Source of the DNA: a virus | Direction: 5' to 3' (one strand) | Virus record (IMG/VR): IMGVR_UViG_3300035182_002586 | Coordinates: 186,001-250,000 of that record | DNA length: 64,000 bases | Shown here: one piece after another, positions 5,119-30,308 of the stretch | Numbering within the stretch: position 1 is the stretch's first letter | Layout: each line of letters starts with the position of its first letter | Notes under the pieces: generated by a model | Database searches by the model: none | The model's input: only the letters and a program-made list of their open reading frames with translations | What the model was told of the DNA's origin: nothing | Position numbers and translations under genes: made by a program

Positions 5119-5149
5119 TACTACAACGGAACCCTCGGGGTGATCCATC
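5119..5149 (-). promoter_or_regulatory. Two-block promoter motif (GATGGATC-N16-TGTAGTA)
   Basis: On the minus strand, GATGGATC (5142-5149) is followed after exactly 16 bases by TGTAGTA (5119-5125). The spacer begins ACCCCGAGGGT, matching three of the other copies. The ATG at 5113 is only five bases past the second block. If that block is a -10 element, the transcript would be leaderless or nearly so. Confidence 0.7.
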
Positions 5150-5157
5150 CGGTCCCC

Positions 5158-5165
5158 TACTTATC
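5158..5165 (+). promoter_or_regulatory. Possible CTTATC-type promoter element, plus strand
   Basis: TACTTATC lies 14 bases upstream of the ATG at 5180. It resembles the TTCTTATC motif of the late genes but is closer to the start codon. It is divergent to, and partly shares an intergenic region with, the two-block promoter at 5119-5149. Confidence 0.3.
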
Positions 5166-5179
5166 CATTTCCAGCAGGT

Positions 5180-6001
5180 ATGACGTTCCCGGAAGCAGGG
5201 GCCGCCCGCGAGGCATACATCATCGACCAGGTGCGCCAGGGGCGCTTCGAGGTCGAGTTCGCGACCATCACGTCCGACTACAACGGGCACCATGCGGAGT
5301 TCCAGGTCTTCGCGGACGCCCTCAAGGTTGACGGGGTGCGCGTCAACGTGAACGCACAGACGCAGCAGATCATCGCCGACATGACCGGGTGCATGCTGCT
5401 GACCCCGAAGCTCGCGGACCTGATCTGGATGCAGCGTCAGGTGACGTTGCCCCCGATGCCGCGTCCCATCACGTCGGCGACGGCGGCGATGATCGATCAG
5501 TCGAAGAAGATCGACGCAGCCCTCGCGAAGCTCGGGAACCCCAAGGGCCTCATCTGCACGGTCGGCAAGCACTGGGTCATCGACAACGACCTCTCACAGA
5601 CCAAGCTGATCTACGGCGTCCACGGGGCCGAGAACTACGGCTGGCACTTCGAGGGGGCGAGCTACCAGGGCATCGTCGGCGAGCAGATCGCCAGCGGCTT
5701 CAAGGACCCCAATGGACGCGTCTACCGGCTCATCCAGGGCCGTGGGTGGGCGCACAACATGTCCGAGGTCGACTACTCGCAGATCTGCATCTGCGTAGCG
5801 ATCATGTGCAAGGTCGACGGGCAGGACATGGACATCCGGGACCTGCTCCGTGATCCGAATCTCGCCCCCCTCGCCAGCCACAACGGCGTGATGAAGTTCT
5901 TTCGCCAGCCGGGTGTTCCGGAGCCGACCGACCACACGATCATCATGCCGATGATCACGATCACCGCGTCGCCGGGTTCGGACCCGGACACGTCCGCCTG
6001 A
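5180..6001 (+). CDS. Hypothetical protein (273 aa), unrecognised
   Basis: The start is the ATG at 5180 with AGCAGG upstream. The protein looks like a folded alpha/beta enzyme or binding protein rather than a structural repeat. A conserved-looking central block reads GKHWVIDNDL, then GAENYGWHFEGASYQGIVG, then RLIQGRGWAHNMSEVDYSQ. The His, Trp, Asp and Tyr residues concentrated there could form an active site, but I cannot name the family. There is no signal peptide or membrane segment. It starts a plus-strand run with the nuclease-like gene and the SNF2 helicase. Confidence 0.75.
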   Translation: MTFPEAGAAREAYIIDQVRQGRFEVEFATITSDYNGHHAEFQVFADALKVDGVRVNVNAQTQQIIADMTGCMLLTPKLADLIWMQRQVTLPPMPRPITSATAAMIDQSKKIDAALAKLGNPKGLICTVGKHWVIDNDLSQTKLIYGVHGAENYGWHFEGASYQGIVGEQIASGFKDPNGRVYRLIQGRGWAHNMSEVDYSQICICVAIMCKVDGQDMDIRDLLRDPNLAPLASHNGVMKFFRQPGVPEPTDHTIIMPMITITASPGSDPDTSA

Positions 6002-6012
6002 CCCGGTGTAGC

Positions 6013-6408
6013 GTGCCCGCCGTGATCGACGACATATGCCGTGCTCTTCGTGCCTGCCGGCTCCGGTTTGGCGACGAAATCGAGCTGCAAGATGGGATCG
6101 AGCGCCTGTTCCAGGCCAGGGGGTTCCTCTACGAACGCGAGGCTCAGCTCGACGAGGCAGGCCGCGTCGACTTTCTCGTCTTCGGTTCCGGTGAGGTACA
6201 GGCCCCCAGCGTCGCCATCGGCGTCGAGGTGAAGATCAAGGGGTCTACGGCTGAGGTGACACGCCAACTCCACCGGTACGCCTCGACCGGGAAACTCTCG
6301 GGCCTCGTGCTGGCCACGACGCTGATGCGGCACGCCACACAGCTCCGGATGCCCTCCCTCGGGGGTGTGGAGTTCCGCTCCCTCTACCTCTCCGGATCTG
6401 CTTTCTGA
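6013..6408 (+). CDS. Small PD-(D/E)XK-like nuclease
   Basis: The start is assigned to GTG 6013; GTG 6022 is an alternative and neither has a strong ribosome-binding site. The 131-residue protein has a restriction-endonuclease-like core: GRVDFLVFG (motif II Asp), then GVEVKIKGS (the E-x-K motif), then RQLHRYA (the downstream Gln/Tyr helix of many such nucleases). The length suits a stand-alone catalytic core. Its stop codon overlaps the start of the SNF2 helicase gene (TGATG), so the two are translationally coupled and probably work together on DNA. Substrate specificity cannot be read from the sequence. Confidence 0.75.
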   Translation: MPAVIDDICRALRACRLRFGDEIELQDGIERLFQARGFLYEREAQLDEAGRVDFLVFGSGEVQAPSVAIGVEVKIKGSTAEVTRQLHRYASTGKLSGLVLATTLMRHATQLRMPSLGGVEFRSLYLSGSAF

Positions 6409-8144
6409 TGCCCCCTCCCGTTGTCGGTACGGCCGTCTACGACGAGGACCTACGTGTCTGGCGCATCCGGGCCGAGCCCCACGTGATGATGCGCCTCAAG
6501 CGTGTCTTCGGGCGCATCGCACAGAACGCCTTCGGGGAGGTGCGGCTGTCCGCCACCGAGGAGAACTGCCGGGAGCTTGCCTGGTTCACACAGCGCTTCG
6601 CATTCGACGTAGACCGCCCCGACATTCTCCAGGAGCGCGCAGAGGCTCACAGGGGCCGGGAAGACGCCCTGGCGGGCATCTTGTCGACCGATCACGTCCC
6701 TCCCCCGTTCCACACCCTCGCCCTTCCCGCTCGCGAGTACCAACGGCTCGCGGCTGAAATGGTCCTTCGCAACGGGTCCCTTCTGTTGGCGGATGATGTA
6801 GGTCTAGGGAAGACAGCCAGTTCGATCTGCGTCCTCACGGAAGCCAACGCGCTCCCTGCCCTCGTGGTGACCCTCGCTCACCTGCCTCGCCAGTGGGAGG
6901 CCGAGATCAAGAAGTTCGCCCCCCACCTCACGACCCACGTGGTCAAGAAGGGGACCCCCTACGACCTGACGAAAGCCCCTCGGGGTTCCAAGGCACCGAA
7001 CCGGTTCCCCGACGTGATCCTGCTGAACTACCACAAGCTCGCAGGGTGGGCGGACACTCTCGCCGAGAAGGTGAAGACCGTCATCTACGACGAGGCTCAG
7101 GAGCTTCGTCATGCGGGTACGAACAAGCACGCGGCCGCGCGACACATCTCCTCGGCCACGACCTACCGCATGGGGCTCACCGCGACCCCCATCTACAACT
7201 ACGGCGGGGAGATCTACAACGTCATCGACTCCATCAGGCCGGACTCCCTCGGGACACACGAAGAGTTCATGCGCGAGTGGTGCATCGATTGGGGGTACGG
7301 AGCCCGGCCCGGGGACAAGCCCAAGATCCGAGACCCCAAAGCGTTCGGCACCTACGTGCGCAGGTCGGGCCTCATGCTCCGTCGAACCCGCGCCGAGGTT
7401 GGGCGCGAGCTGCCTGCGTTGACCCGTGCCATCCATCACGTGGACGCGGACGAAGAAGCTCTCGACCGTGTGGGAGGCAGTGCCGCCGAGCTGGCGCGCA
7501 TCATCCTCAAGCAAGGGGAGAGCAAGCAGGGCGAGAAGTTCCTTGCGAGCGAGGAGTTCAACAACATCCTCAGGCAGGCAACGGGCATCGCCAAGGCTCC
7601 GTACGTCGCGGACTTCGTGCGGCTTCTCATCGAGAGTGGGGAGAAAGTCGTCCTCTACGGGTGGCACCGCGAGGTCTACTCCCTCTGGATGCACCGGCTC
7701 GCGGATCTCAGCCCGGTGATGTACACGGGGTCGGAGTCCTCTGCGCAGAAGGATGAGTCGAAGCGCAAGTTCCTTGCAGACGAGTCCCCACTCCTCATCA
7801 TCTCACTGCGTGCGGGCGCAGGGCTCGACGGGCTCCAGCACAAGTGCCGCACAGTCGTCTTCGGGGAGCTGGACTGGTCCCCGGGCGTCCACGAACAGTG
7901 CGTTGGACGCGTCTACCGCGACGGGCAGCCGGAACCTGTGCTCGCGTACTTCTTGCTCTCCGAGACTGGTAGCGATCCGGTCGTAGCAGACACGCTCGGG
8001 CTCAAGAAGCAGCAGATCGACGGGCTTCGCGATCCTTCGGCGGACATCGTGGAGACGCTCGAAGCGGATCCCGACCGCATCAAGAAGCTCGCGGAGGCGT
8101 TCTTGAAGCAGCGCGGGATCGCTCTACCCCCTTCCGGCCCCTAG
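6408..8144 (+). CDS. SNF2-type superfamily 2 helicase/translocase
   Basis: This 578-residue protein has both RecA-like lobes. Motif I is ADDVGLGKT (128-136), motif II is DEAQ (228-231, instead of the commoner DEAH), and motif III is GLTATP (256-261). Lobe 2 carries SLRAGAGLDG and EQCVGRVYRDGQ, which hold the arginine finger. The 95-residue N-terminal domain is not recognised. SNF2 proteins translocate on double-stranded DNA and remodel protein-DNA complexes. The coupled PD-(D/E)XK-like gene suggests a helicase-nuclease pair. All motifs look intact. Confidence 0.92.
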   Translation: MPPPVVGTAVYDEDLRVWRIRAEPHVMMRLKRVFGRIAQNAFGEVRLSATEENCRELAWFTQRFAFDVDRPDILQERAEAHRGREDALAGILSTDHVPPPFHTLALPAREYQRLAAEMVLRNGSLLLADDVGLGKTASSICVLTEANALPALVVTLAHLPRQWEAEIKKFAPHLTTHVVKKGTPYDLTKAPRGSKAPNRFPDVILLNYHKLAGWADTLAEKVKTVIYDEAQELRHAGTNKHAAARHISSATTYRMGLTATPIYNYGGEIYNVIDSIRPDSLGTHEEFMREWCIDWGYGARPGDKPKIRDPKAFGTYVRRSGLMLRRTRAEVGRELPALTRAIHHVDADEEALDRVGGSAAELARIILKQGESKQGEKFLASEEFNNILRQATGIAKAPYVADFVRLLIESGEKVVLYGWHREVYSLWMHRLADLSPVMYTGSESSAQKDESKRKFLADESPLLIISLRAGAGLDGLQHKCRTVVFGELDWSPGVHEQCVGRVYRDGQPEPVLAYFLLSETGSDPVVADTLGLKKQQIDGLRDPSADIVETLEADPDRIKKLAEAFLKQRGIALPPSGP

Positions 8145-8168
8145 CGGTGGCCGCGGGACCGTCGCGTC

Positions 8169-8441
8169 ATGCACTCGGACCCCGAACCGCGTGAAGCCGA
8201 GCGCGGACAGAATGCACGAGAGGGAGTGCCCGAACAGGTTGTGGAAGGACCACCTCCACCGGAGCCAGCACCGCCCCCTGAACCAGGTTGGGTGAGTGTG
8301 CGCGAGAAGCTCCAGTGCGTCGTGCCCTACGACACGAAAAGGCTCCCCTTGGAGTCCATCCCCTGGGTGGGTAAGGACAACCAGGGCGTGCTCCGTCTCC
8401 ATGTGAGACGTGTCGATGCACCTTACACAGGATTCGGGTAG
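8169..8441 (+). CDS. Small Pro-rich hypothetical protein (90 aa)
   Basis: The start is the ATG at 8169, 24 bases after the SNF2 gene. Residues 25-40 are almost all Pro and Glu; the C-terminal half looks folded (WVSVREKLQCVVPYD). Overlapping minus-strand frames are also open, so the strand is not certain. The bidirectional hairpin at 8477-8504 ends plus-strand transcription just downstream and makes a minus-strand gene here less likely. No family is recognised. Confidence 0.45.
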   Translation: MHSDPEPREAERGQNAREGVPEQVVEGPPPPEPAPPPEPGWVSVREKLQCVVPYDTKRLPLESIPWVGKDNQGVLRLHVRRVDAPYTGFG

Positions 8442-8476
8442 GAGCAGAGGCCCTAGACGAACGAACACGAAGGGAG

Positions 8477-8504
8477 GGTGACACCTCTCGTGAGGTTCGT
8501 CACC
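8477..8504. terminator. Bidirectional hairpin terminator between convergent genes
   Basis: The stem pairs GGTGACACCTC (8477-8487) with GAGGT-(TC bulge)-GTCACC (8492-8504) around a TCGT loop. There is no U-tract. The stop codon of the minus-strand gene (8500-8502) is inside the right arm. It closes the plus-strand helicase run and the minus-strand run from 13693. Confidence 0.6.
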
Positions 8505-8823
8505 TAGGTTCCACGCGAAGAGAGACCAGTCGCCCACGGCCGCGTTTCTCTTCGGCTGCGGACCCGTAGGTGAAGCACATCTCCGCGAGCATCTTCCTCG
8601 GATAGATCATGGTGAAGTGCTGGTGCTTCGCGTCCCACCACCCCCAGTACGTGCCCGTTGGGTCGTGAGAGATCCGCACGGGCACGATGGGGTTCTTCGT
8701 GTCGCAGGATCGTACCTGCATCTCGGAGGGGAAGAAGTGCTCGTACTCCCCATTCAACTTGCGGGCCGCGAGGAGGTCGGTGAACGCCCCTTCCGGGACC
8801 TCGACGATCTGTACCTGTTCCAC
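8500..8823 (-). CDS. Hypothetical protein (107 aa)
   Basis: The start is assigned to GTG 8823, two bases after the upstream stop and downstream of a GAGGATCGG stretch. An ATG at 8865 would add 14 residues but would overlap the upstream gene by 40 bases. The protein is aromatic-rich in its second half (GTYWGWWDAKHQHFTMIYPR) and has one possible metal or ligand cluster of His/Trp residues. No family is recognised. It is the last gene of the minus-strand operon that begins at 13693. Confidence 0.65.
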   Translation of the reverse strand: MEQVQIVEVPEGAFTDLLAARKLNGEYEHFFPSEMQVRSCDTKNPIVPVRISHDPTGTYWGWWDAKHQHFTMIYPRKMLAEMCFTYGSAAEEKRGRGRLVSLRVEPR

Positions 8824-8825
8824 GG

Positions 8826-9086
8826 CTAGACCGATCCTCGAAAGCCCATCACTCGACTGCGCCATCTCGTGAAGCTGCTCTCGTTCGGGGGCTTGCGCTT
8901 GTCCGCGTCCTGGAACGCCTCCTCCCACGAGGCCCCCTTGCCGAGCACCCACATGTCCCGGCCGAGCAAGATGCCCACCGAGAAGCTCTTGGGACTCGTG
9001 CCTGTAGTGCACCCGAAGGACCGCGCGAAGGCTCCCCACCGACGGTAGGCTTCTTGGCTAGCCTCCCCTCGTGTCATGGCCTTCAT
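8826..9086 (-). CDS. Small hypothetical protein (86 aa)
   Basis: The ATG at 9086 overlaps the stop of the upstream gene in an ATGA, which supports both frames. The protein is basic. Its core (GRDMWVLGKGASWEEAFQDA) looks like a short beta hairpin followed by a helix, as in small phage adaptor or DNA-mimic proteins, but nothing specific is recognised. Confidence 0.65.
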   Translation of the reverse strand: MKAMTRGEASQEAYRRWGAFARSFGCTTGTSPKSFSVGILLGRDMWVLGKGASWEEAFQDADKRKPPNESSFTRWRSRVMGFRGSV

Positions 9087-9985
9087 GGGGTCGCCTCGTC
9101 CAGGAAGCGGAGCCCCTCCTCGACCGACACACGGCACGGGCGGAGGGCGAGCTTCGGCCTCGCTTCCTCCGGCTGGCTGTCGATCACTTCCTGCGCCTTC
9201 TTCTCCGTCTCGTAGACGCACAGGCCGTGGCCGTTCGAGATGACGTGTCCGTGCTCTTCGGTGAGGACGATGCAGACCCCCTCGAAGGGCGGGCCCGCTT
9301 TGCGGAGCAGGGCATCGACGACCTTCCGGGCCGCCGGGATGACCCTGGCGAGCAGCACTTGCTGGTGCACGTGCTCCTGGACCTTCCGCGTCTTCTCCCA
9401 CTCGACCTGCTCGGGAGTCGTTGCCTCGAAGCTGTTCCTGAAGAGATCTCGGTACGAGATGAACCGGAGACCGTACTCCAGCGTGCTGAGTGCGTTCTTG
9501 TCGCCGTCTTCGGCCTCGGGGGTGCGGGTGTTGGCCCGCATGAGAATCCCACTACGGAGCTTCGCCCGGCACGCCTGGTAGATGACGCCGATCTTCGTCC
9601 ATCGGTCGAGCGTCTTCCATTCCTTGAGACGGGCAGTGAGCTTCTGCGAGGTCAGCTCGTCCGCCCACCACTCGGTACCGTCGTGTTGTTCCCCGAGCTG
9701 TCCAAGTTCGAGAAGGTCGGAGTCACTGATGTACCCGGAGTCCCGGTGCACACCACAGAGGATGTCCTGCATCGCCCCGGTCGTGCCGCAGCAGGGCCCG
9801 ATGTAGTCTTCCCCGTCTCGCGTGACGAGCTGCCACCAGTCGGCGGGCTTGAACGGGAGGTAGACCCGGTTGATGCGAGTGGGGTCCGGTTCCGGGTGCC
9901 GCCCCTTGCCTGGTTCCCCGACCCAGTTTCGTTCGTACTGGACCTTGACTCCGACTTCGGACAGACGCTTTTCGTGTTCGGTCAT
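9083..9985 (-). CDS. Hypothetical protein (300 aa)
   Basis: The start is the ATG at 9985 with GAGAGGG upstream. The first 70 residues include Trp-rich VYLPFKPADWWQLV and a GPCCGTTGAMQD stretch with CC and a further CGVH, possibly a metal site. The rest is mainly helical and Gln/Arg/Glu-rich. The C-terminal segment (EGVCIVLTEEHGHVISNGHGLCVYE) forms an alternating beta region. I recognise no family. It sits in the minus-strand operon after the second SNF2 gene. Confidence 0.7.
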   Translation of the reverse strand: MTEHEKRLSEVGVKVQYERNWVGEPGKGRHPEPDPTRINRVYLPFKPADWWQLVTRDGEDYIGPCCGTTGAMQDILCGVHRDSGYISDSDLLELGQLGEQHDGTEWWADELTSQKLTARLKEWKTLDRWTKIGVIYQACRAKLRSGILMRANTRTPEAEDGDKNALSTLEYGLRFISYRDLFRNSFEATTPEQVEWEKTRKVQEHVHQQVLLARVIPAARKVVDALLRKAGPPFEGVCIVLTEEHGHVISNGHGLCVYETEKKAQEVIDSQPEEARPKLALRPCRVSVEEGLRFLDEATP

Positions 9986-10010
9986 CCCTCTCTGAGTACA
10001 CCAGCGAGAG

Positions 10011-10887: not shown

Positions 10888-10892
10888 GACGG

Positions 10893-11435
10893 TTACTCCG
10901 CGTCCCGCACTACACCGACGGAGACCTCGACGCGCTTGCCGCGGACAGCCTCGAAGAGTTCCCTGTCCGGCTTCGGGCCGGCGTAGTAGCCCGGAGGGAC
11001 GATCAGGTGCCCTTTCCGGCAGCCCTTCATCTTGCAGCGATCCGCGTCCGGAAGGCTCGCAGGGTCGTACCCGTCCCGGGGGACGCGGAACTCCTCGAAG
11101 CCGTTGGGGTCGATCCACGCCGAGAACTCCATCGTGTGGTAGAGGGGGCTCTGAAACGTCAGACCGATGAGCGGGAGCTGGAGGATGTACGCGCTGTCGT
11201 GCTCGCAGTCCGTAGCGTCTCCGAGGTACGCCTTCAACACACACTGCTTGGAGTGCTCGTGGTACTGGAGGTTCGCCTGACCGAACCGGAGCCACCTGAT
11301 ACGGTCGCCGTACTCGTGGCAGTCGAACACGGTCACGACCGTGATGCACCGGTCCGCTTCCCGCGAGAGCTTGCGGAAGTCCGCGGGCGTCACGATGAAC
11401 GGGGCCTTCTTCACGTCCTCAGTGCTCTTCGACAT
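10893..11435 (-). CDS. Hypothetical protein (180 aa) beside the SNF2 helicase
   Basis: The ATG at 11435 overlaps the stop of the SNF2 helicase gene in TGATG, so translation is coupled. The protein is beta-rich in the first 110 residues and contains several Cys/His residues (FDCHEYGDR, KQCVLKAYLGDATDCEH, DRCKMKGCRKGH) that could form one or two metal sites. The coupling suggests it acts with the helicase. I do not recognise the family. Confidence 0.7.
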   Translation of the reverse strand: MSKSTEDVKKAPFIVTPADFRKLSREADRCITVVTVFDCHEYGDRIRWLRFGQANLQYHEHSKQCVLKAYLGDATDCEHDSAYILQLPLIGLTFQSPLYHTMEFSAWIDPNGFEEFRVPRDGYDPASLPDADRCKMKGCRKGHLIVPPGYYAGPKPDRELFEAVRGKRVEVSVGVVRDAE

Positions 11436-13693
11436 CACGACTCCCCGTTGGCCGGCGGGCGGCCGACCTGGCGCCAGTACTTCGTGCAGAGAGCAGCGGC
11501 CAGCTCCCACTGCTTGTCCGTGAGGCCGCTGAGGACCTCGTTCGCGAGCTTGTGGCCAATGCCACCGTCGGACGCGTTGAAGCCCACGTCGTTCTGCATG
11601 CGGGCGCGATCCGGGTCGAGACCGGCGAGCGTGAGCACCGCCGACATGGCCCACTTGTCACGGGCGCTGGCGGGACCACGACGCGCGGGCTCGTCGGCCG
11701 GCTGCACGTGACGCAGCTCGGGAGGGAGCATTCGGTTCTCGGCGACGGCCTTCGCACGCTCCTCGGCGTATCGGGCGATACGCTCCTCGGCGTTCTTCTT
11801 CGCCTCGTCGGCCTTGCGGGCCTCGTTCGCCGCTTCCTCCGCCAGCCGAGCGAAGTCAACCTCGGGGAGGAGGACCGGTTCCACCGAGTCCCCCGCGCGG
11901 ATGCGGGAAGCATCGACCGAAGCGTTGATCATCGCCTGCTTCGAGGCGAGGAGCGTGAAGATGCGCGCGTCGAGCGGGTGCTCCGCGACGATTTGCGTGA
12001 TGACGACGCCACGGCTTTGACCTATGCGACACACGCGATCTTCCGCCTGTTCGTTCAAAGCGGGCGTGAATTCCTGGTCGAGGAAGATGGCGTGGCACGC
12101 CTTCGTCAGCGTGATCGCGACGCCACCGGCCTTGATGGTCGCGGCGATGCCCTTGAGCTTGCCATTCTGAAAGTCTTCCTCGATGCGCGACCGCTCTTCG
12201 GCGGGGATCTCGCCGGTGATCTTCGCCCACCCCTCACGAGTGGCGAGAAGGTCGACCGCCGCGAGGTGCGCGGAGAAGACCACGACAGGCTCTTCCTGCT
12301 CCTCGTAATCCGAGACCATCTCCAAGAGAGCGGGGATCTTCGCGCGGGCGAGCATCTCGCGGGCGCGGGAGAACTCCGTGAAGCTCGTCCCGTCCATCCG
12401 GGCGATCTTCGCGCGGGCGTCTTCGATCGACTCCAGGGCGAGGGGCTCCGGAAGGTCCGCCTCGAAGGGATCCTCGTCGCTGATGATCCGGTCCCACAGG
12501 GACGGGGACTGCGCGCGGAGGATGTTCATCGCCTTGTCGCACGCCTTCACGGCCTTGGCGTCGATCGACACGCTGACCTGGCGGTAGGTCTTCACCGGCA
12601 GCTCGGGGAGCACGTCGATGCGCATGCGGCGCAGCGAGACCTTGCGCAAGTGCTTGGTGACCAGCGCCTCGTCCGGGGTGCCCCACTCGTAACCGTAGTC
12701 GCCACGCCACCCGTTGAAGGCGACGCAGAAGTTGTCCCAACTGCCGAACGCCTCGCGGGCGATGTCGGCCGCCTGGAGGACCGACCAGATCTCCTGCGGG
12801 CGGTTGAGGAGGGGCGTGGCCGTGAGCAGCCAGACCTTGCCCTGGTTCTTACGGACCAGCTCCGACATGTTGCGGAAGCGGGTCGTGCGCAGCGCCTTCG
12901 AGTTCTTGACCGCGTGGGCCTCGTCCGCGATGAGGACCGTGCCACACGCGCAGTTGCCCACCAGCTCCGCCGGGAGGATGTCGTAGTTGATGACGATGAC
13001 CTCGCCGGCCTGCGGCCAGCGGAAGCTACCGCGACCCGACAGGACTTCGATCTTGAGGTCGGGGCGCCATTTGGCCGCCTCGCGCTTCCACACGCCCTTC
13101 GCGACCGCCGGGGCCACGATGATGACGGGGGACTTCTTCGGGATCGCGAGAAGCGCCTGGACCGTCTTGCCGAGGCCCATCTGGTCCGCGAGGAGCGCGC
13201 CCCACCGGTTGGTGAGCCAACGGACGCCCTCACGCTGGAACGGGAAGAGGAACAGGCCGCGCCCACGGAGAAGCGCGTCGGCCTCGTCGAGGCGCCCTTC
13301 GGCCTCGGTCACACCGGCCTTGAAGTCCGCCGCCTTGGCCTGGAGGGCCGCCGACAGCTCCGGGAGCATGTCGAGCACGAAGCCCGACTTGCGAAGCTGA
13401 TCGACGATGAACATCGCCTTGTCGAGCGACGCGACGTTCACCCGGCGCGTGCCGTCGTAGCGGGCGCTGGCCGTAGCCGCGCGATACTCACCGAAACGGT
13501 CACCGAGGAAGCCGTGGATGCGAAAGAGGACGTTCTGGCCGTCGCGCGCGACCTCGATCTTGACGGAATCGAGTTCCCCGGCGCAGAGGGCGCACTTGGT
13601 GACCCACGGGGGGCCGAACACGAAGCCCTGGCCCACGCCCACGTTCGCGCCGCAGCCAGAACAAGCACCCGCGTAGTAGTTCTTTCGAGCCAT
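11435..13693 (-). CDS. SNF2-type helicase with N-terminal zinc ribbon
   Basis: The 752-residue protein starts at the ATG at 13693, immediately below the two-block promoter. It opens with a zinc ribbon (CSGC 11-14 and CALC 34-37). Helicase motifs follow: ADQMGLGKT (169-177), DEAH (257-260), LLTATP, and in lobe 2 an AGGVAITLTKA region and EDRVCRIGQSRG. The last 170 residues hold an Ala/Glu coiled coil and a small helical domain, perhaps a loader. The order and the RIGQ arginine motif fit the SMARCAL1/RapA-like part of the SNF2 family. It is only distantly related to the SNF2 protein at 6408-8144 and is likely active. Confidence 0.93.
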   Translation of the reverse strand: MARKNYYAGACSGCGANVGVGQGFVFGPPWVTKCALCAGELDSVKIEVARDGQNVLFRIHGFLGDRFGEYRAATASARYDGTRRVNVASLDKAMFIVDQLRKSGFVLDMLPELSAALQAKAADFKAGVTEAEGRLDEADALLRGRGLFLFPFQREGVRWLTNRWGALLADQMGLGKTVQALLAIPKKSPVIIVAPAVAKGVWKREAAKWRPDLKIEVLSGRGSFRWPQAGEVIVINYDILPAELVGNCACGTVLIADEAHAVKNSKALRTTRFRNMSELVRKNQGKVWLLTATPLLNRPQEIWSVLQAADIAREAFGSWDNFCVAFNGWRGDYGYEWGTPDEALVTKHLRKVSLRRMRIDVLPELPVKTYRQVSVSIDAKAVKACDKAMNILRAQSPSLWDRIISDEDPFEADLPEPLALESIEDARAKIARMDGTSFTEFSRAREMLARAKIPALLEMVSDYEEQEEPVVVFSAHLAAVDLLATREGWAKITGEIPAEERSRIEEDFQNGKLKGIAATIKAGGVAITLTKACHAIFLDQEFTPALNEQAEDRVCRIGQSRGVVITQIVAEHPLDARIFTLLASKQAMINASVDASRIRAGDSVEPVLLPEVDFARLAEEAANEARKADEAKKNAEERIARYAEERAKAVAENRMLPPELRHVQPADEPARRGPASARDKWAMSAVLTLAGLDPDRARMQNDVGFNASDGGIGHKLANEVLSGLTDKQWELAAALCTKYWRQVGRPPANGES

Positions 13694-13698
13694 GCTCC

Positions 13699-13729
13699 CT
13701 CTACCCCACGACCCCGGAGGCGATCCATC
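13699..13729 (-). promoter_or_regulatory. Two-block promoter motif (GATGGATC-N16-GGTAGAG)
   Basis: On the minus strand, GATGGATC (13722-13729), 16 bases, then GGTAGAG (13699-13705). The spacer starts GCCTCCGGGGTC, like the other copies. The ATG at 13693 is five bases past the second block, the same geometry as at 5119-5149. It drives the SNF2 operon. Confidence 0.7.
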
Positions 13730-13790: not shown

Positions 13791-13800
13791 ATGTACACCG

Positions 13801-14331: not shown

Positions 14332-14979
14332 ATGTCTCATCCACGTCGAATCGAGTGTTTCTTGATCGAGAGCACGAATGACCACTGGGTCTACCTGCGC
14401 CGGTACCGATCGACGTACCCTGAGGCCGGGCAGTGCCCTCGCGCCCCCGGTGCATACCACAACGCCGAAGCCCTGATCAGCGAAATCCAGGCAGAGATGC
14501 CTGTGTCGGGCGACCTGGGTGTGCCCCATGACGACCCGCGGTGGCCTCTCAAGTGTGATCACTGCGCCTACATCTTCCAGCCGGAGGACCAGTGGCAGGT
14601 CAACCACCGGCGGAAGTACGTGCACCAGGCCACAGGGCGAACCTACGCGCTCACCGGCCCCGAGAACTGCAACACAGACAAGTCCATCGACGCCCCCGTT
14701 GGAGCGCTCTGGCGTGCAGACTGGCTCGAAGATCTCGACTGGCGGGGCCCGGACGGCAAGAGCTACATCGTGCGGACACCCGGGGGCGACTGGACCATCG
14801 ATGGCCCGTCCACCACCGGCGGAGGGGTTCGTCAGTCCAAGGAGAGCGGTGGAGGCTGGACGCGCAGCGGGGAAGCACCCCACTTCACCGTCCGTCCCTC
14901 CATCCTGATCGGGAAGCAACCGAACGGGAGCTACACGTACCACGGCTTCATGAACGCCGGGTTCCTCGACGAGTGCTAG
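14332..14979 (+). CDS. Hypothetical protein with CxxC and DUF6527-like C-terminus
   Basis: The start is the ATG at 14332, after the in-frame TTG and GTG codons. A CDHC motif near residue 73 and a later Cys suggest a metal site. The second half contains GGDWTIDGPSTTGGG and then GEAPHFTVRPSILI and TYHGFMNAGFLDEC. This order (W-x-x-x-G-x-x-P-x-x-T-x-x-PSI, then a YHGF-type block) resembles DUF6527-type phage proteins of unknown function. The match is from memory and needs a profile search. The stop codon TAG shares CTAG with the convergent gene. Confidence 0.75.
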   Translation: MSHPRRIECFLIESTNDHWVYLRRYRSTYPEAGQCPRAPGAYHNAEALISEIQAEMPVSGDLGVPHDDPRWPLKCDHCAYIFQPEDQWQVNHRRKYVHQATGRTYALTGPENCNTDKSIDAPVGALWRADWLEDLDWRGPDGKSYIVRTPGGDWTIDGPSTTGGGVRQSKESGGGWTRSGEAPHFTVRPSILIGKQPNGSYTYHGFMNAGFLDEC

Positions 14980-15389
14980 GTCTTCGGGGTCTCTACAGGG
15001 TCCCCGGCGAAGGTCAGGGGCTCTCCGTGCGGGTCCCACGGTAGTTGGACCCGCAGACCCTTCTTCTTGCCGTTGCACACGGTGCAACGCTCCAGCACGC
15101 CGCCGATGCACCCATTGTGAGGGACGCGCCCCACCCCCTGACAGGCGCGGCACGGCCCGTTCTCCATTCTGAGGGGGTTGTCCTCGTAGTAGTCGACGAG
15201 ACGTGTAGCTTCCTCCGTCGTCAGGTGGTCGTTGCTGCGAAAGAAGGCGATCGCAGCCTGTGCCCTTTCGTCTCGCCATGCACCCCACACGTGGTCGTAC
15301 TCCGCGAGCACGATCCGGGCGGGCGACCCTTCTGGCTCCAGGGCGATCTTGGCGCGCAGCTCAGTCCACTCGGCTTTGGAGAGGGGCAT
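14976..15389 (-). CDS. DnaJ-type zinc-finger protein (137 aa)
   Basis: The start is the ATG at 15389. Residues 83-113 contain CRACQGVG and CTVCNGKKKG, two CxxCxGxG-like repeats of the kind that bind zinc in DnaJ-family cysteine-rich domains. There is no J domain. The N-terminal 75 residues are helical. Stand-alone versions occur in phages, where they may help protein folding or bind partners. It is divergent from the SIMPL-like gene, with only 49 bases between the start codons. Confidence 0.75.
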   Translation of the reverse strand: MPLSKAEWTELRAKIALEPEGSPARIVLAEYDHVWGAWRDERAQAAIAFFRSNDHLTTEEATRLVDYYEDNPLRMENGPCRACQGVGRVPHNGCIGGVLERCTVCNGKKKGLRVQLPWDPHGEPLTFAGDPVETPKT

Positions 15390-15396
15390 GGGCGGG

Positions 15397-15419
15397 CTCT
15401 ACACCGGGTTGGTGTAAGG
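15397..15419. promoter_or_regulatory. Divergent TGTA-type elements between 15389 and 15439
   Basis: The minus strand reads TGTAGAG at 15397-15403, identical to the second block of the two-block motif. The plus strand reads TGTAAGG at 15413-15419. Neither has a GATGGATC block 16 bases upstream. The two face away from each other as an imperfect inverted repeat (CTACACC/GGTGTAA). They could be weak divergent promoters. Confidence 0.3.
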
Positions 15420-16947: not shown

Positions 16948-18396
16948 CTACTTCGCACTGTACTTCCGAAAGAAGTCGGGGTCTTTGAGGGCAAGGGACA
17001 CCATCTTCGCGCCGAGACGGGAGAGGGCGTGGTCGAACTCGTCCGTCAGATGCCCCCCGTACTCGTGCGACAGCTCGTGGATCAGGAGGTCGTTCACCTC
17101 TTCGGTCGCCCCCCGCTCGAACCACTTCTTGCCGAGGCGGTCGTGATTGAACGTGAGCTGCGCGCCGCCGTAGTTCGCGGCCCACCGGTCCGTCATGCGC
17201 CCTCGCTCGAAGTGCACGTCGACGGAACGGCCGAGGAGCTTCCACGCCAGCTCGTGGGCGTAGGTCGCCAGGTTCGTCATCCCGGGGGTCCACTCGGACT
17301 CGGGGATGTAGCGAGCGTCCCTCGCATCCGGGTCGTTGCTGTAAGGCTTCGGCGTAGGCGCGATGCGCCCCGAGGGAAGGGTAGCGCCAGTGCTACGGAT
17401 GTTCCTCCAGGCGTCCTTCGAGAACGTTCCGCCGGGGATCACTGTGTACCCGTCGGCCACGAGGCGGCGATTCGCCTCCGGATCCGTGGGGTCGAAGATG
17501 GCGCGCTTCTCCCCAAACTGGTGGGTGAGCACCGTGTCCACGGCTTCGGCGACGACACGCTCATCCGCGAGTGCTTCCTGGATCGCCGGGAGTGCGGCCT
17601 GGTCGGGCCGAAGGGTCTCGTGTATCTCGTTCAGCACGAGGACCGCCAGCTCCCGCGCATAGGCGGGAGTCACGTTGTCCCGATCCGAGTTGAGAGGGAT
17701 CTTCTGCATGACCTCGACCGTCCACGGGAGGTCAGTCTCGACGACGGGGATCCCCATCTCGTAGATACGCGAGACGTTATCGATCGGCTCGTACACACGG
17801 ATGGTGGTCTTGCGCGCCGTCTTGCGCAGGTAGCCTTCCGCGTCAGCGATCTCCGTGGGCAACGTGGCCTCGAACGTCCGAAGAGGGGTCCGGATGGGGA
17901 TGACTTCGTTGTTCAGCGTCGTGGGGACCGGAGGAAGCAGCAGCTTCGCGGCCCGGATCACTTGCGCGTACTCGTCGCGCGTCATGCGCAACACGCAGTA
18001 GAAGATAGAGCCTCGTTCGAGATGGTTCCGAACAGGGCGCCGGCCGTTCTTGTCGAAGGCGAAGCCCCCCTTGGTCGAGAGGACCTCGGCCTTCTCGCAT
18101 GCGGCGAGCACGAGCTTCTCGCCGAGGTTGAAACGCCCTCGCTTCGTGGGGTCGCTTTTCTTGTTCGATTCCGCGTACAGCGTGAACGCGTGCGTCAGGT
18201 CCGCGAAGCCATCCGGGTCGTCGTCCTCGACGAGCATCGTCACGAGAGGGCGCCCCTCGACAGGCTCCATCTTCACCGTGACTTTGCTGGTCTTGGTGTC
18301 CCACGCGTTCTGGACCAGCTCGTAGAGGATGAACTCCATCCCCTTACGCTTGAGCAACTTGGCCAGACCCTCACGGTCAACTTCGAACCAACCCAT
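16948..18396 (-). CDS. GHKL-type ATPase fused to an HExxH metallopeptidase domain
   Basis: The 482-residue protein starts at the ATG at 18396 with a GGAGGATCC ribosome-binding site. The N-terminus carries the Bergerat ATP-binding motifs: ELVQNAWD (26-33, N box), DDPDGF (59-64, G1) and GRFNLGEK (87-94, G2). These are the motifs of Hsp90, MutL, gyrase B and MORC ATPases. The C-terminus has LLIHELSHEYGGHL, with HELSH at 440-444, the zinc site of a gluzincin- or metzincin-like peptidase; a third ligand may be the following Glu, Asp or His residues. The joining of the two activities is unusual. It heads an operon with two small genes and has its own two-block promoter. Confidence 0.85.
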   Translation of the reverse strand: MGWFEVDREGLAKLLKRKGMEFILYELVQNAWDTKTSKVTVKMEPVEGRPLVTMLVEDDDPDGFADLTHAFTLYAESNKKSDPTKRGRFNLGEKLVLAACEKAEVLSTKGGFAFDKNGRRPVRNHLERGSIFYCVLRMTRDEYAQVIRAAKLLLPPVPTTLNNEVIPIRTPLRTFEATLPTEIADAEGYLRKTARKTTIRVYEPIDNVSRIYEMGIPVVETDLPWTVEVMQKIPLNSDRDNVTPAYARELAVLVLNEIHETLRPDQAALPAIQEALADERVVAEAVDTVLTHQFGEKRAIFDPTDPEANRRLVADGYTVIPGGTFSKDAWRNIRSTGATLPSGRIAPTPKPYSNDPDARDARYIPESEWTPGMTNLATYAHELAWKLLGRSVDVHFERGRMTDRWAANYGGAQLTFNHDRLGKKWFERGATEEVNDLLIHELSHEYGGHLTDEFDHALSRLGAKMVSLALKDPDFFRKYSAK

Positions 18397-18439
18397 GGAT
18401 CCTCCTACACCGCGGGGGCAGCGAAGCCTCCCGTACCCC

Positions 18440-18470
18440 CTCTACAACGTGACCTTGGGGGTGATCCATC
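18440..18470 (-). promoter_or_regulatory. Two-block promoter motif (GATGGATC-N16-TGTAGAG)
   Basis: GATGGATC (18463-18470), a 16-base spacer starting ACCCCCAAGGTC, and TGTAGAG (18440-18446), all on the minus strand. The start codon at 18396 is 43 bases downstream, so this copy has a normal leader with a GGAGG ribosome-binding site. Confidence 0.75.
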
Positions 18471-19989: not shown

Positions 19990-20020
19990 GATGGATCATG
20001 ATACCCCTCCCATTGTAGAG
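19990..20020 (+). promoter_or_regulatory. Two-block promoter motif (GATGGATC-N16-TGTAGAG)
   Basis: GATGGATC (19990-19997), 16 bases, then TGTAGAG (20014-20020). The spacer differs from the other four (ATGATACCCC...), which shows that the two blocks and their distance are the conserved part. The ATG at 20027 is six bases downstream. Confidence 0.7.
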
Positions 20021-20026: not shown

Positions 20027-20194
20027 ATGTCCCGCAAGAACAAGGTCGAGATCATCAAGGTCGAAGAGCCCACGCCCCGCAGCGCCGTGGCGCTCGCGAT
20101 GCAGCGCCGCTACGGCTACGGCGTGAAGATCTTCAAGGATCGCCGCGCCCCCCGCGGCGGCGCCAAGCGCCAGGATCACCACGAGGGTTGGTGA
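20027..20194 (+). CDS. Small basic protein (55 aa)
   Basis: The start is the ATG at 20027, directly under its own two-block promoter. The protein is rich in Lys and Arg (MSRKNKVEIIKVEE, QRRYGYGVKIFKDRR) and ends in a His-rich tail (RQDHHEGW). A small, separately expressed basic protein could be a host-takeover or nucleic-acid-binding factor. I recognise no family. It stands alone between a promoter and a terminator hairpin. Confidence 0.7.
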   Translation: MSRKNKVEIIKVEEPTPRSAVALAMQRRYGYGVKIFKDRRAPRGGAKRQDHHEGW

Positions 20195-22903: not shown

Positions 22904-22906
22904 GTC

Positions 22907-23530: not shown

Positions 23531-23545
23531 GGGGAAGCCTCCCGT

Positions 23546-24454: not shown

Positions 24455-24456
24455 GA

Positions 24457-25014: not shown

Positions 25015-25017
25015 GGC

Positions 25018-25434: not shown

Positions 25435-25464
25435 AAGGGGGAAGCCCTTTCACCCCCTACCGGG

Positions 25465-25472
25465 GATAAGAA
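25465..25472 (-). promoter_or_regulatory. Late-type promoter motif TTCTTATC
   Basis: TTCTTATC on the minus strand, preceded by GTTTT, ends 30 bases before the start codon at 25434. Similar motifs with similar spacing lie upstream of the 40070, 47112 and 54338 start codons. Confidence 0.5.
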
Positions 25473-25486
25473 AAACAGGGAGATCG

Positions 25487-25756: not shown

Positions 25757-28700
25757 CAGGTCAACCTCGGGCTCAGGATGATGGTCGACGGATCGACCGC
25801 GTAGTGGACGTTGTTGGTCAGCAGCGGGTGCCCTTCGATGCGGTAGAGGTCTGCCGCTGCGGTCCCTTCGGCCGTCCCGTTCGTGCTGATGGCGATGTAG
25901 GAGGTCTTCGGGTTGGTGTCCTTGAGCTGGACGCCGTTCGTGATGACCAGCATCATCAGCTCGTCTCCCGGCGAAACCTCCGTGGCGCCTACGCTGGTGG
26001 GCGCGTTCCGAACGAGGAATGCTCGACCCGTGATGACGTTGGTGTGGCCTGCGGGTGCCTGGATCTGGCCTTGGGCGGCTACGACTTCCCCGCCCGGGTG
26101 CGAACCCGAAGCAGTGAAGGCGGACCCTCCACGGTTCGTCCGGAAGTTGACCAGGAGGGAGTAGTTCCCCTGTTCCCCGTCGACGTGCACCACAACGTCC
26201 CCGGGGGCGCCCGAAGCGGTCGAGGCAGCGTTGAGCGGAGCTTCCGACTGCTCCAGGGCACTCATCTGCGCGAGGCCCGCCATCAGCGTGCCCACGCCCG
26301 TGTTCCCGAGGTAGACGAACGTGCCTGCGGTCCCGTCCCCGAGGCCGAGGCTGCCCCCACGGAAGTCCTTGTCCCTCCACAGGGCGCCGAGCGGGAGACG
26401 CTCAGTGGCCCCTAGGTAGGCAGTATCGGCTTCGATGAGAGTGGCTTCGCCGCTCGCCGCTCCGTCGATCAGCACGCGCGGACGCGCTGCAATCGGAGAG
26501 ACCGGCGGGTAGACAGTGGGATCCTCGTAGCCCACGTTGCGGAAGTCGAAAGCGTTGGTGAGGAGGAGCGTCGGGTTCTTGGTGTCCCCGGAGAAGCGTC
26601 CCGTCCCGAGGGTCGTTGCGAAACCCACAGAGGCGAGGACTTCGAGGACCTTCTGGTTCGGCCGCGTGAGACCGTTCGGGATCAGGTGTGTGGTTGAGAG
26701 CTGGTAGGCGACGCCGCTCGTGAGAGGACCGGGGGCGTACCCGATGTCCGAGTAGCTCGTCTGCGAGCCCCACGCATCCCCCTGGTAGGGCGTACGCGAG
26801 TAGTTGACGACGACCTGATCGGTCCCCGTGGCGGGGCCCGGAAGCACGCTGGTCGGCCCGTTGATGATCGCGTTGACGTTGTTCGTGCGCACCGGGTCGA
26901 CGGCCTGGTTGCGCATCAGCGACGTGCTGGTCGGCCTCGTGAGCACGAGACGGAACTCGTGGTTGAGGTCGAACGAGCCCCGGTCGAAGCCGAAGATCGA
27001 CGACTCGATCACATAGTTCCCGGAAGCGAACGACGTGATCGGGTTGAGGACCGACTTCGAGAGGTCGAGCGCGTCGGCGTTGATGATGAACGTGCTGTCA
27101 CCATCGTCGTCGATCTCGACCCAGAAGGTCGGACCCTGGAAGTCCTGACGGAGCAGGTTGCGTGCGCCCGCGCCAGTGGGTGCACGCGTCGTCGGGTTGT
27201 ATGCCGACCCGTTGGCCTGGTAGTCACCCGCCTCATAGACGGCGAAGAGGCGGGCGATGCCGTAGAACGGCGGCAGTTCGAGGCCCATGCGGCCCAGGCC
27301 CCGGGTGTCCGTGAAGAAGCGGAGACCCGCGAACGTGATGCCACCGAAGGTGAACGCCGCGTTGTACGTCGCCGGGGTGCCCGGCGGGTTGAAGTTGAAC
27401 GTCGAGAAGATCGCGTACGACAGCGATCCGTTCGAGTACGGGACGTAGTTCTTGTCCCCGTCTGTGAAGGACGCGCCCTTCTTCGACAAGCACATGAAGT
27501 TGACGCCCTCAGCGAAGTTCGTGCTGGCCGCGTCCTGCCAGAGAATCGGGCAACGCACCTCGCCCCAACCGGGCACGAGATGCCGCGGAAGGGTCACGTA
27601 TAGGTTGTTGGTGCTCGCCGTGGGGAACGTCGTTCCCGAGAAGAGCTGGAGGGGATCGGTCGTTGCCCACTTCGGCGTGGCCGCATCCGCCTTGAGCAGC
27701 GGCATGAGGTTCTGCGCGTGCGAGAGCGTGTAGTTGACACCCACAGCCACGGGCATCGACGTTGCCAGCGTGAGCTTGGTCACGTCTGCGCCCGGAGCCA
27801 CCGCCGTCACGACGTAGGTTCCGGCTGCCCCACCGAGGGCTACAACGAGAACGTCTCCGATCTGCGTGCCCGCAGTGACGAAGTTCTTCGATGCATCCGT
27901 AAACGTCGTGGAACCAGCGCCGACACCCACAGTACCCGTCGTGAAAGACGTCGGGGCGACGTTGGCCGAGGTGCCGTCCATGGTCCGGAACTCGGTCGGC
28001 CACACGATGCGACGGAACGGCTGGAGGATGACCGTCTTCGAGCCGAGGTCCCCGTAGGTCTCTGCGGTCGAGGGTAGCGAGTTCTTGTACATCGCGCTCC
28101 GGTACTTCGACCAGAGCGGTGCCCACGTGATCCTCGTTGGCAGGTTCGTCGGCACGACCCCCGACTGCTGGAGAAGCAGCTCGGTGCTCGGGCTGATGTA
28201 GTTGACCGAGTGCATCGAGTCCGGCTTGCGGGAGAGACCGCGCCCTGCCCCGTACACGACGTGCGCCGTGATGTAGAGCTGGTTGCCGGTTGCCGGGAAG
28301 CTCGGTCCGAGCGTGATCACGAGGTCGTCGTTCGGCCCCGGGTTCGCCGGAGTCACCGTGTACAGTGACGCGGACACCGGGGTCGTCTGACCATCGACGC
28401 GGATGTCGACCGCGTGTGCGTACCCATCGTTGACGAAGCGCACCTGATCGGCGTCACCACCCGGGAGTCCGCTCTTGAACTGCGAAATCGGGATGGAGAG
28501 CACGTCGTTCGGAGAGAACACGCTCGGCGTTGCACGCGTCGTGTGCGTGACCGTCAGCGACAAGGACCACCCGACGTTGGACGGGGAAGGAACGGCCACG
28601 CCGTTGGCCTTCGCGATCAGCTCGACCGGCTGCAACGCAGCCGCGTCCGAGAAGATCATGCGGATGTCGTCGGCGCCGTCGAGACGAGTCACGCCGAGAG

Positions 28701-30096
28701 CAACACCACTGCCGACCGAAGCGATCTTGTCCTGGTACGCGACGAACGGACCCTGCGGCCCCGCGCCCGAGCGTTTCCAGTTGGCGCGGAGCTGTCCGCG
28801 CACGAGCTTGTCGAGGTTCGTTCGAAGCATCGCCTCGTAGTCGAACCCGTTCGGGTTGATCGCGTGGCGGAGATCGAGCACGTCGGTCGACGCGATCTGG
28901 TCCGAGAAGAGACCGTCAGGACGGCCTGACATGACCACGACCGGAGTGCCCGCTGCGTGCGTCTCGGCGCGGGTGCCGTTGACGCCACGGATCACGCCCG
29001 TGACGTTCGTACCCGTGATGCCCGCGTACGTCATCAGCTCGTCGCCGACCTTGATGAGGACCGGGAATGCAGGCGTCGCCGGGAGCGGCACCCCCGAGGA
29101 GGACGCCAGAACGAACGTCGTCGCAGCGGCCGTGATGGACGAAGCGAGCGTCGGAACCGTCGAGAACGTTAGGATTCCGGTTCGGTCGACCGCGAGCGGG
29201 TTCCGGTTGAACGCGCCGTTGAGGTTCTGGCTCGGGTCTCCCGACCAGGCCACGCCGTTGCGACGGAAGACGGCGGCGATCGGGATGGCGTACGTGTAGC
29301 CGTCGACCGTGCCGAGAGCGTTCGAGGTTCCATCCCCAGCTCGCCACAGACCGGGATCCCCCAGCGTGGTGCGCATGTTCTGGAAGATGAATGACGTCGG
29401 AGAAGCCGCAGCGCCCTGCGCCTTGACGATCGCCGGGTCGAAGCCGTCCGGGTTGCTCGTGAGACCCACGAGCCCCTTCGCGACACGGATGCGGTACTGG
29501 AGCTGGAGCCTCTGCGTCGTCTCGAAGCCGATGGCCGGATCGACGAGATCATCGGGGAGGAACGCGAAGCCACCCTCGACGTTGCCGTAGCGCCAGATGG
29601 CGGACCCTGCCGGCTTGTTCGTGGTCGACGGGTTCGGCGGGATACGCGCGACCCACGCCTCCAGGAACACGAAGTCGACTCGGAAGTCACCGCTGTTCGC
29701 GGGCGGGGGATCGAGAGCGATCACGTTCGTCGTGTCGCTGTTGTTCGGTGCACCGGGAGGCGTACCCGTACGCGTGCCTGCGACGGGGATGAGCCACCCG
29801 TTGACCGCAGCCCACATGACCGATTGGGTTTCGCCCGTGCGCTGACGTCCGAAGCGGAGCCAGTTCGACCACGCGGGGTTCGTCTGGAAGTCCGACGGGA
29901 GACTGGTTTCGTTGCCAAGCCAACCAGACGGGGTGTCTCGGAGGGCGCCCGTTCGGTGCTCCTCGTTCGAGATCTGCTGGAGGAAGTTCAACTCGGAGTC
30001 GAGCGGCGGCTTCCCTTCCTGCCAGAGAACCTGGAGGAATGCAGTACCTTGAGGGGCAAGAACCCGGGAGACCCCACCACCGAAGTTGTCGGTCAT
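25756..30096 (-). CDS. Large virion structural protein (1446 aa), paralogue of the 43042 protein
   Basis: The start is the ATG at 30096. The N-terminal 400 residues align with the 43042-45630 protein through shared landmarks: QEGKPPLDSELNFLQQ, TPSGW, VNGW, a V-x-L-E-x-W strand, LQYRIRV, LWRAGDGTSNALGTVDGY and FRRN, then a PDGLFSD...DLRHA block. The QxGKPxLDxELN pattern resembles DUF4815-type proteins of phage baseplates or fibres. The C-terminal 900 residues are beta-rich with Gly/Thr/Asn-rich strands and no clear enzyme motif. It would be an adhesin or baseplate part at the virion surface. Confidence 0.82.
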   Translation of the reverse strand: MTDNFGGGVSRVLAPQGTAFLQVLWQEGKPPLDSELNFLQQISNEEHRTGALRDTPSGWLGNETSLPSDFQTNPAWSNWLRFGRQRTGETQSVMWAAVNGWLIPVAGTRTGTPPGAPNNSDTTNVIALDPPPANSGDFRVDFVFLEAWVARIPPNPSTTNKPAGSAIWRYGNVEGGFAFLPDDLVDPAIGFETTQRLQLQYRIRVAKGLVGLTSNPDGFDPAIVKAQGAAASPTSFIFQNMRTTLGDPGLWRAGDGTSNALGTVDGYTYAIPIAAVFRRNGVAWSGDPSQNLNGAFNRNPLAVDRTGILTFSTVPTLASSITAAATTFVLASSSGVPLPATPAFPVLIKVGDELMTYAGITGTNVTGVIRGVNGTRAETHAAGTPVVVMSGRPDGLFSDQIASTDVLDLRHAINPNGFDYEAMLRTNLDKLVRGQLRANWKRSGAGPQGPFVAYQDKIASVGSGVALGVTRLDGADDIRMIFSDAAALQPVELIAKANGVAVPSPSNVGWSLSLTVTHTTRATPSVFSPNDVLSIPISQFKSGLPGGDADQVRFVNDGYAHAVDIRVDGQTTPVSASLYTVTPANPGPNDDLVITLGPSFPATGNQLYITAHVVYGAGRGLSRKPDSMHSVNYISPSTELLLQQSGVVPTNLPTRITWAPLWSKYRSAMYKNSLPSTAETYGDLGSKTVILQPFRRIVWPTEFRTMDGTSANVAPTSFTTGTVGVGAGSTTFTDASKNFVTAGTQIGDVLVVALGGAAGTYVVTAVAPGADVTKLTLATSMPVAVGVNYTLSHAQNLMPLLKADAATPKWATTDPLQLFSGTTFPTASTNNLYVTLPRHLVPGWGEVRCPILWQDAASTNFAEGVNFMCLSKKGASFTDGDKNYVPYSNGSLSYAIFSTFNFNPPGTPATYNAAFTFGGITFAGLRFFTDTRGLGRMGLELPPFYGIARLFAVYEAGDYQANGSAYNPTTRAPTGAGARNLLRQDFQGPTFWVEIDDDGDSTFIINADALDLSKSVLNPITSFASGNYVIESSIFGFDRGSFDLNHEFRLVLTRPTSTSLMRNQAVDPVRTNNVNAIINGPTSVLPGPATGTDQVVVNYSRTPYQGDAWGSQTSYSDIGYAPGPLTSGVAYQLSTTHLIPNGLTRPNQKVLEVLASVGFATTLGTGRFSGDTKNPTLLLTNAFDFRNVGYEDPTVYPPVSPIAARPRVLIDGAASGEATLIEADTAYLGATERLPLGALWRDKDFRGGSLGLGDGTAGTFVYLGNTGVGTLMAGLAQMSALEQSEAPLNAASTASGAPGDVVVHVDGEQGNYSLLVNFRTNRGGSAFTASGSHPGGEVVAAQGQIQAPAGHTNVITGRAFLVRNAPTSVGATEVSPGDELMMLVITNGVQLKDTNPKTSYIAISTNGTAEGTAAADLYRIEGHPLLTNNVHYAVDPSTIILSPRLT

Positions 30097-30277
30097 TTCT
30101 GCGATCCCTTCTGCATCCGGGGCCGCATCAATGGAAGCGCGGCCTCCCCGTGCGGAAGCATGAAAAGAAACGCGAGGGTGGCCCCTTGGCCCCGGTCGGG
30201 CACGAGACCTCCGGATGGGCTATGCCGCTGGTGTGGTCCGAGAATGTCCGAACGGGCACGAGAATGTCCGCCCCCTC
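30097..30277. other. Intergenic region upstream of two divergent genes
   Basis: About 180 bases between the start of the minus-strand structural gene and the promoter of the plus-strand lipoprotein. I see no convincing ORF, no TTCTTATC element at the usual distance from 30096, and no strong hairpin. It probably holds the minus-strand leader or a promoter I do not recognise. Confidence 0.4.
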
Positions 30278-30308
30278 GATGGATCGCCCCCGGGGTCGCG
30301 CTGTACAG
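30278..30308 (+). promoter_or_regulatory. Two-block promoter motif (GATGGATC-N16-TGTACAG) of the lipoprotein gene
   Basis: GATGGATC (30278-30285), a 16-base spacer starting GCCCCCGGGGTC, and TGTACAG (30302-30308). The ATG at 30326 follows 17 bases later with TAGGAG in between. This is the only copy inside the structural half and it points against the direction of the surrounding genes. Confidence 0.7.

Follow-up and report, generated by a model that had tools for sequence, protein, structure and literature searches.

Promoters of ECF (group IV) sigma factors combine a GT-type -10 core with a -35 element such as TTGAAC, and T4 late promoters consist of a single -10-type block without a -35. 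For giant phages, two papers describe jumbo phages lacking an RNA polymerase of their own which encode sigma homologues presumed to guide the host enzyme to the promoters of the phage (PMC7598289, PMC7824862). The -10 core of sigmaE is given as GTC in PMC7598289, and in phiKZ late promoters transcription starts at TATG or directly beside it (PMC5312081, PMC7598289). Almost nothing is known of how transcription is controlled in uncultured huge phages that have no RNA polymerase of their own; here, we present explicit candidate promoters with predicted transcription starts for such a genome.

The analyzed window comprises 64,000 nucleotides and represents positions 186001-250000 of the IMG/VR record IMGVR_UViG_3300035182_002586 (528,957 bp; hereafter G000). 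Baseplate J, DNA polymerase A, RecA, GroEL and clamp loader proteins, together with about 54 tRNA genes and a tmRNA, mark G000 as a huge tailed phage. A search of IMG/VR with the baseplate protein yielded 37 related loci, most at 43-68% identity, and among these approximately 37 relatives six phages (G000, G003, G004, G009, G012 and G013) were analyzed in depth; the phage records are linear and may be incomplete. A near DNA match for the DNA described here was sought in phages and none was found. Gene starts are the calls of a simple purpose-written gene caller, which rewards Shine-Dalgarno sequences, and chance levels were taken from the shuffled window, a reversed-motif control and order-3 Markov genomes of the same composition. 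Within the tRNA set, one gene carries the stop-codon anticodon TTA, and G004, with about 40 tRNAs and a tmRNA, carries one with the anticodon TCA; both are possible suppressor tRNAs.

Position and conservation of the two-block motif

An earlier note on this DNA had described a two-block motif at five places in the window, each just upstream of a gene on the same strand. All five copies are present on the strands and at the coordinates reported there (Table 1), and they fit the pattern GATGGATC-N16-KGTAGWR with variants in block 2; the exact pattern matches twice in the window compared with 0.00 expected from shuffles. Across G000 we found about sixty copies of this element, termed class I. Scanning at up to three mismatches returned 62 matches (13 for the reversed control), and 66 of the 78 occurrences of the GATGGATC octamer in 529 kb are followed by NGTA 15 or 16 bases on, a combination found 0-1 times in order-3 Markov genomes. 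The resulting position weight matrix (PWM) reads GATGGATC-R-N10-C-N-C-R-Y-KGTAGWR-GGGRC-ATG, with 48 sites at spacer 16. A spacer of exactly 16 bases holds for the five window copies, none of which has 15, but not for the genome, where the 57 sites matching GATGGATC-N15/16-NGTAG divide into 41 with 16 and 16 with 15 bases. The spacer consensus R-CCYCC-RRGGT derived from the window is likewise not general, the positions conserved genome-wide being only R at 9, C at 20 and 22, and RY at 23-24.

The association with gene starts extends to the whole genome. At 51 of the 57 sites, a called start follows on the same strand no more than 60 bases downstream (4% at random). The distance of 5-6 bases between second block and start codon, noticed in the window, is a genome-wide rule, with 39 of the 57 sites showing a distance of exactly 5 (0.1% at random). 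Site 3 does lie on the strand of its gene but 43 bases off, with a further element, GGTGTA-N9-ATG, in between. Random scatter of the motif inside genes, set beforehand as the refuting outcome of a genome-wide scan, was not found. The region at 417-529 kb, rich in short genes, holds 39 of the 57 sites, and the genes served there are presumably of an early type.

Whether the spacer has 15 or 16 bases, block 2 is followed by the start codon at a distance of 5 bases, which is what a -35 role for block 1 and a transcription start set by block 2 would lead one to expect. With block 2 as -10, the predicted start coincides with the A of the ATG or is adjacent to it, and the mRNA would therefore be leaderless or nearly so. 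The spacing of 15 or 16 bases is within the range of 15-18 expected of sigma-dependent bacterial-type promoters, and the blocks differ from the sigma70 consensus TTGACA/TATAAT, for which G000 shows no excess (one site compared with 0-2 in simulations). In G004, class I copies stand back to back in divergent orientation with 5-11 bases between their first blocks, thus leaving no room for another promoter upstream, and a composite class I/II element is found 9 bases before a tRNA gene.

Scanning viral contigs for the exact class I motif with its start codon gave 0 matches, because relatives use different blocks. A loose scan detected GGTTGATC-N16-TGTAGA in three relatives, and unbiased two-word searches upstream of genes in the five fetched relatives identified counterparts in each: GGTTGATC-N16-TGTAGGA in G004 (91 PWM sites, 39 with the start at +5), TGAGATC-N13-CGTARTA in G009 (61 PWM sites), GTTGAATCC-N13-GTGTTCY in G003 (35 PWM sites), as well as TTGAAC-N16/17-TGTACT in G012 and TTAGAT-N15-NGTAG in G013 (few sites each). 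GTA is kept in the -10 of all lineages except G003, and the -35 and the spacer vary by lineage. Taken together, position, strand, spacer, the start locked to block 2, the counterparts and the divergent copies strongly support the proposal of the earlier note that class I is a two-block promoter with predicted near-leaderless mRNAs.

Table 1. Coordinates of promoter elements, associated genes and sigma-related genes. Entries marked "window" are numbered from the first base of the window, all others from the first base of the named record.
Feature	Record	Coordinates	Strand	Description
Class I site 1	window	5119..5149	-	GATGGATC-N16-TGTAGTA, ATG 5 bases downstream
Gene after site 1	window	4229..5113	-	294 aa, no Pfam match
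Class I site 2	window	13699..13729	-	GATGGATC-N16-GGTAGAG, ATG 5 bases downstream
Gene after site 2	window	11435..13693	-	SNF2/RapA-like helicase, 752 aa; Pfam SNF2-rel_dom 1.5e-23, Helicase_C 1.7e-11
Class I site 3	window	18440..18470	-	GATGGATC-N16-TGTAGAG, 43 bases 5' of gene, in tandem with class II element
Class II element GGTGTA after site 3	window	18406..18411	-	between site 3 and gene, 9 bases before ATG
Gene after site 3 and class II element	window	16948..18396	-	482 aa, HATPase-like
Class I site 4	window	19990..20020	+	GATGGATC-N16-TGTAGAG, ATG 6 bases downstream
Gene after site 4	window	20027..20194	+	55 aa, no match
Class I site 5	window	30278..30308	+	GATGGATC-N16-TGTACAG, ATG 17 bases downstream
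Gene after site 5	window	30326..31348	+	340 aa, Lcl_C-like C terminus
Class II element GGTGTA	window	3907..3912	-	before gene 3403-3897
Class II element GGTGTA	window	9997..10002	-	before gene 9083-9985
Class II element GGTGTA	window	15400..15405	-	before gene 14976-15389; inverted TACACC 5 bases upstream, forming a back-to-back pair
ECF-like sigma candidate gene	G000	93299-94480		outside the window
Class I site before candidate gene	G000	93249-93279		
Partial ECF-like paralogue	G000	491832-492497		mainly insert region
Class I site upstream of paralogue	G000	491769-491799		
ECF-like candidate	G003	208448-209767		extra segment inside insert
ECF-like candidate	G009	484271-485476		extra segment inside insert
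Double sigma-region-4 protein gene	G000	71524-72171		215 aa
Region-4-only protein gene	G000	479437-479790		117 aa
Class I site upstream of region-4-only gene	G000	477794		
Further sigma factor gene	G009	255580-256143	-	region 2 and region 4
Further sigma factor gene	G009	77010-77819	+	region 2 and region 4
tRNA gene, anticodon TTA	G000	123254-123328		
tRNA gene, anticodon TCA	G004	302161-302233		
Words GCTAAAA and CCGATAGGG	LR745208.1	1-50000		region searched

The GGTGTA element

A two-word search in G000 recovered a second element, GGTGTA placed 9-11 bases before ATG (class II), which has no -35 and has the TGTA core in common with class I. At 14-18 bases before starts, GGTGTA was counted 100 times in G000, 50 in G004, 65 in G009, 21 in G003, 88 in G012 and 37 in G013, compared with an expectation of 0.3-1.2 in the six genomes (1.2 in G000) and 0-4 for control words. 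It was also found in four more relatives and is weak or absent in more distant records; Tunturi_5 was searched and lacks it, and LR745208.1 shows a weak enrichment (7 compared with 1 for the control). Divergent back-to-back pairs number 16 in G000 against 0.5 expected, with 0 convergent ones. A Shine-Dalgarno-like sequence precedes 5-16% of class II starts and 35-47% of the others, the latter figure being inflated by the gene caller. Within the window, class II precedes four genes, at site 3 in tandem with class I.

Wholly intergenic copies of GGTGTA in G000 number 178 compared with the 100 at called starts, and some of this surplus may drive unannotated small genes or RNAs. In LR745208.1, the words GCTAAAA and CCGATAGGG occur approximately 47 and 25 bases before starts and look like a sigma28/FliA-type promoter (TAAA-N15-CCGATA), so that this related huge phage may use another sigma class.

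Candidate readers of class I

Two readers had been considered for the motif, a phage RNA polymerase and a phage-modified sigma factor. The former found no backing: G000 gave no Pfam match to an RNA polymerase beta subunit, the catalytic motif DxDGD is absent from its called proteins and from the open reading frames of all six phages, and a T7-type single-subunit enzyme (PF00940) was not matched, a search rendered uninformative by control genomes that likewise gave no match. The latter now has a concrete candidate gene, whose product is ECF-like with an apparently split region 2. In a Pfam search of G000 for sigma region 2, the sole match was spurious, lying out of frame in a baseplate gene; the candidate family was traced through G003 and G009 and has members in all six phages and in further contigs, with a mean identity of 28% between lineages. 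Neither the phage records searched nor 84,980 bacterial and archaeal species genomes contained it, and all members found are in phage contigs.

Pfam Sigma70_r2 matches 10 of 14 family members (best 4e-7), covering the first half of that domain in all six members scanned with coordinates; the G000 protein alone reaches E = 0.024, below the curated cut-off. Past an insert, the second half of region 2 resumes as F..YL..AV.NH.ANF.RT..RR.KE. Beyond this lies a possible C-terminal helix-turn-helix, and one C-terminal piece of the family matches Sigma70 region 2 at 0.0067. Sigma70_r4_2 weakly matches one member (0.03-0.05), and the C-terminal part of the G000 protein matches a PHROG sigma family at 1.2e-4. 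Two AlphaFold models of the family were calculated (mean pLDDT 73 and 77), the candidate model showing helices at 321-384. A fold search with the G000 model placed ECF sigma factors in the first seven positions, sub-threshold, and one with a 252-aa relative returned many sigma factors plus MerR/excisionase folds for the insert, whose neighbors are of the MerR/RdfS/BldC type; leading sigma factors scored E 0.2-2, with none at E < 0.1. A MerR/excisionase-like winged-helix domain is apparently inserted in region 2. In the family members of G003 and G009, the insert contains an extra zinc-ribbon/HNH-like segment.

A class I site precedes the candidate gene in G000, and the G004 gene is preceded by AGTTGATC-N16-TGTAGGT-N5-ATG. 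In G003, the site precedes an internal ATG, which is probably the true start, and none was seen before the gene in G009, G012 and G013. The sites in three of the six phages suggest autoregulation there. G000 additionally encodes a partial paralogue with a class I site upstream, a possible competitor or regulator.

We consider it probable that class I is a promoter of the phage's own, giving near-leaderless mRNAs and read by the host core RNA polymerase together with the phage ECF-like sigma factor, and that class II operates beside it. GATGGATC would act as the -35 and KGTAGW as the -10 at a sigma-like spacing of 15-16 bases, and transcription would start no further than one or two bases from the start codon, yielding leaderless or nearly leaderless mRNA. 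The host core enzyme would probably be steered to class I by the ECF-like protein, with the conserved region 2.3/2.4 reading the GTA core and either the inserted domain or the C-terminal helix-turn-helix reading the lineage-specific -35. Class II would be read by the same factor, alone or together with a conserved double sigma-region-4 protein. Our inference that class I is read by the ECF-like protein draws on sequence and fold matches, both weak, on the context of the gene and on divergence in parallel: class I and the ECF-like family (28% mean identity) vary between lineages, and class II and the double sigma-region-4 protein (64% mean identity) stay constant. This parity, in combination with the upstream class I sites, makes the ECF-like family the best candidate for class I, and the shared TGTA core favors one factor for both classes. 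The double sigma-region-4 protein also occurs in LR745208.1 despite weak class II there, which makes the link between this protein and class II a weak one. More tentatively, the insert might read the -35 and factor and promoter might have co-diverged, resulting in mutually orthogonal class I promoters, a clade-wide class II and mostly leaderless mRNAs.

A different protein might also read class I, an alternative which we rate as unlikely while giving it some weight: a region-4-only protein or the double sigma-region-4 protein, working alongside region 2 of a host sigma factor, or serving as activators, on the model of T4 AsiA/MotA or gp33/gp55. Both genes exist in G000. The region-4-only protein is a clear region 4 (E 1e-18, Pfam 5.6e-18), its gene is found where copies of the motif are dense and has a class I site upstream, and it could be the reader of the -35; however, G003, G004 and G009, which do have class I promoters, hold no clear counterpart (best local match 0.0013, in G003). 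The double protein, with two region-4-type helix-turn-helix segments, is present in all six phages, but these segments look nearly invariant across lineages with different -35 blocks, and it is disfavored as class I reader since it looks too conserved. Further recognizable sigma factors with regions 2 and 4 are encoded by G009 (two genes) and also by G024.

It is improbable that class I is an ordinary promoter for an alternative (ECF-type) sigma factor of the host, each lineage matching the sigma of its own host. The GTA core and the -35 variants TTGAAC, TTGATC and GGATC do resemble ECF promoters, and lineage divergence as well as early-infection use would be explained, but a 529-kb phage with dozens of near-identical copies of this element as its main promoter would then depend on a host stress sigma, and these phages carry sigma genes of their own, some behind class I sites. 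An RNA-level signal, i.e., a translation enhancer or a binding site in a longer leader, would fit the fixed distance to start codons and is nevertheless very improbable in view of the closely spaced divergent copies and the tRNA-associated composite in G004 and of a start distance that is constant from block 2 and not from block 1. Equally remote are operators or stoperators of a repressor, known as asymmetric repeated intergenic sites in temperate actinophages, against which speak the strict same-strand orientation to starts, the fixed start distance, the spacer of 15-16 bases and the -10-like core common to class II.

Comparison with known systems

Searches of an open-access literature collection found no description of this motif or of either promoter class, and none of leaderless transcripts in huge phages or of a MerR-type winged helix splitting a sigma region 2. 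The candidate reader of class I can be tested without culturing the phage, and the clade provides a naturally occurring series of candidate sigma/promoter pairs that diverge from one another. In parallel, the promoter classes allow operons and gene starts to be annotated in these genomes, and they raise the question of how the first transcripts arise without sigma70 promoters.

With their single -10-type block and no -35, class II elements are formally like the T4 late promoters served by gp55/gp33; the sequences are unrelated (GGTGTA compared with TATAAATA), and no gp55 homologue was identified. The likeness of class I to ECF (group IV) systems comprises two short blocks 15-17 bases apart with a GTN-type -10 core, and a candidate with a putative region 2 and a possible C-terminal helix-turn-helix, whose leading neighbors in the PDB, all sub-threshold, include M. 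tuberculosis SigE and SigH as well as E. coli sigmaE. An ECF-like reading is in keeping with the GTA core and with -35 sequences like TTGAAC, considering ECF promoters in general and the sigmaE core GTC named at the outset. The difference lies in a candidate whose region 2 is apparently broken by a winged-helix insert and which was found in phage contigs only. As in phiKZ and AR9, phage-specific promoters are at work in a giant phage, if our reading holds; according to PMC5312081 and PMC7598289, however, the phiKZ and AR9 promoters are served by multisubunit RNA polymerases of the phages themselves, of which none was found in G000, and the early ones are AT-rich. The jumbo phages lacking an RNA polymerase come close in that their own polymerase was not found, sigma-like proteins are encoded and capture of the host core is presumed; their sigma homologues are recognizable as such, and the accessible parts of PMC7598289 and PMC7824862 do not give their promoter sequences, whereas in the G000 clade two promoter classes and their divergence between lineages are visible.
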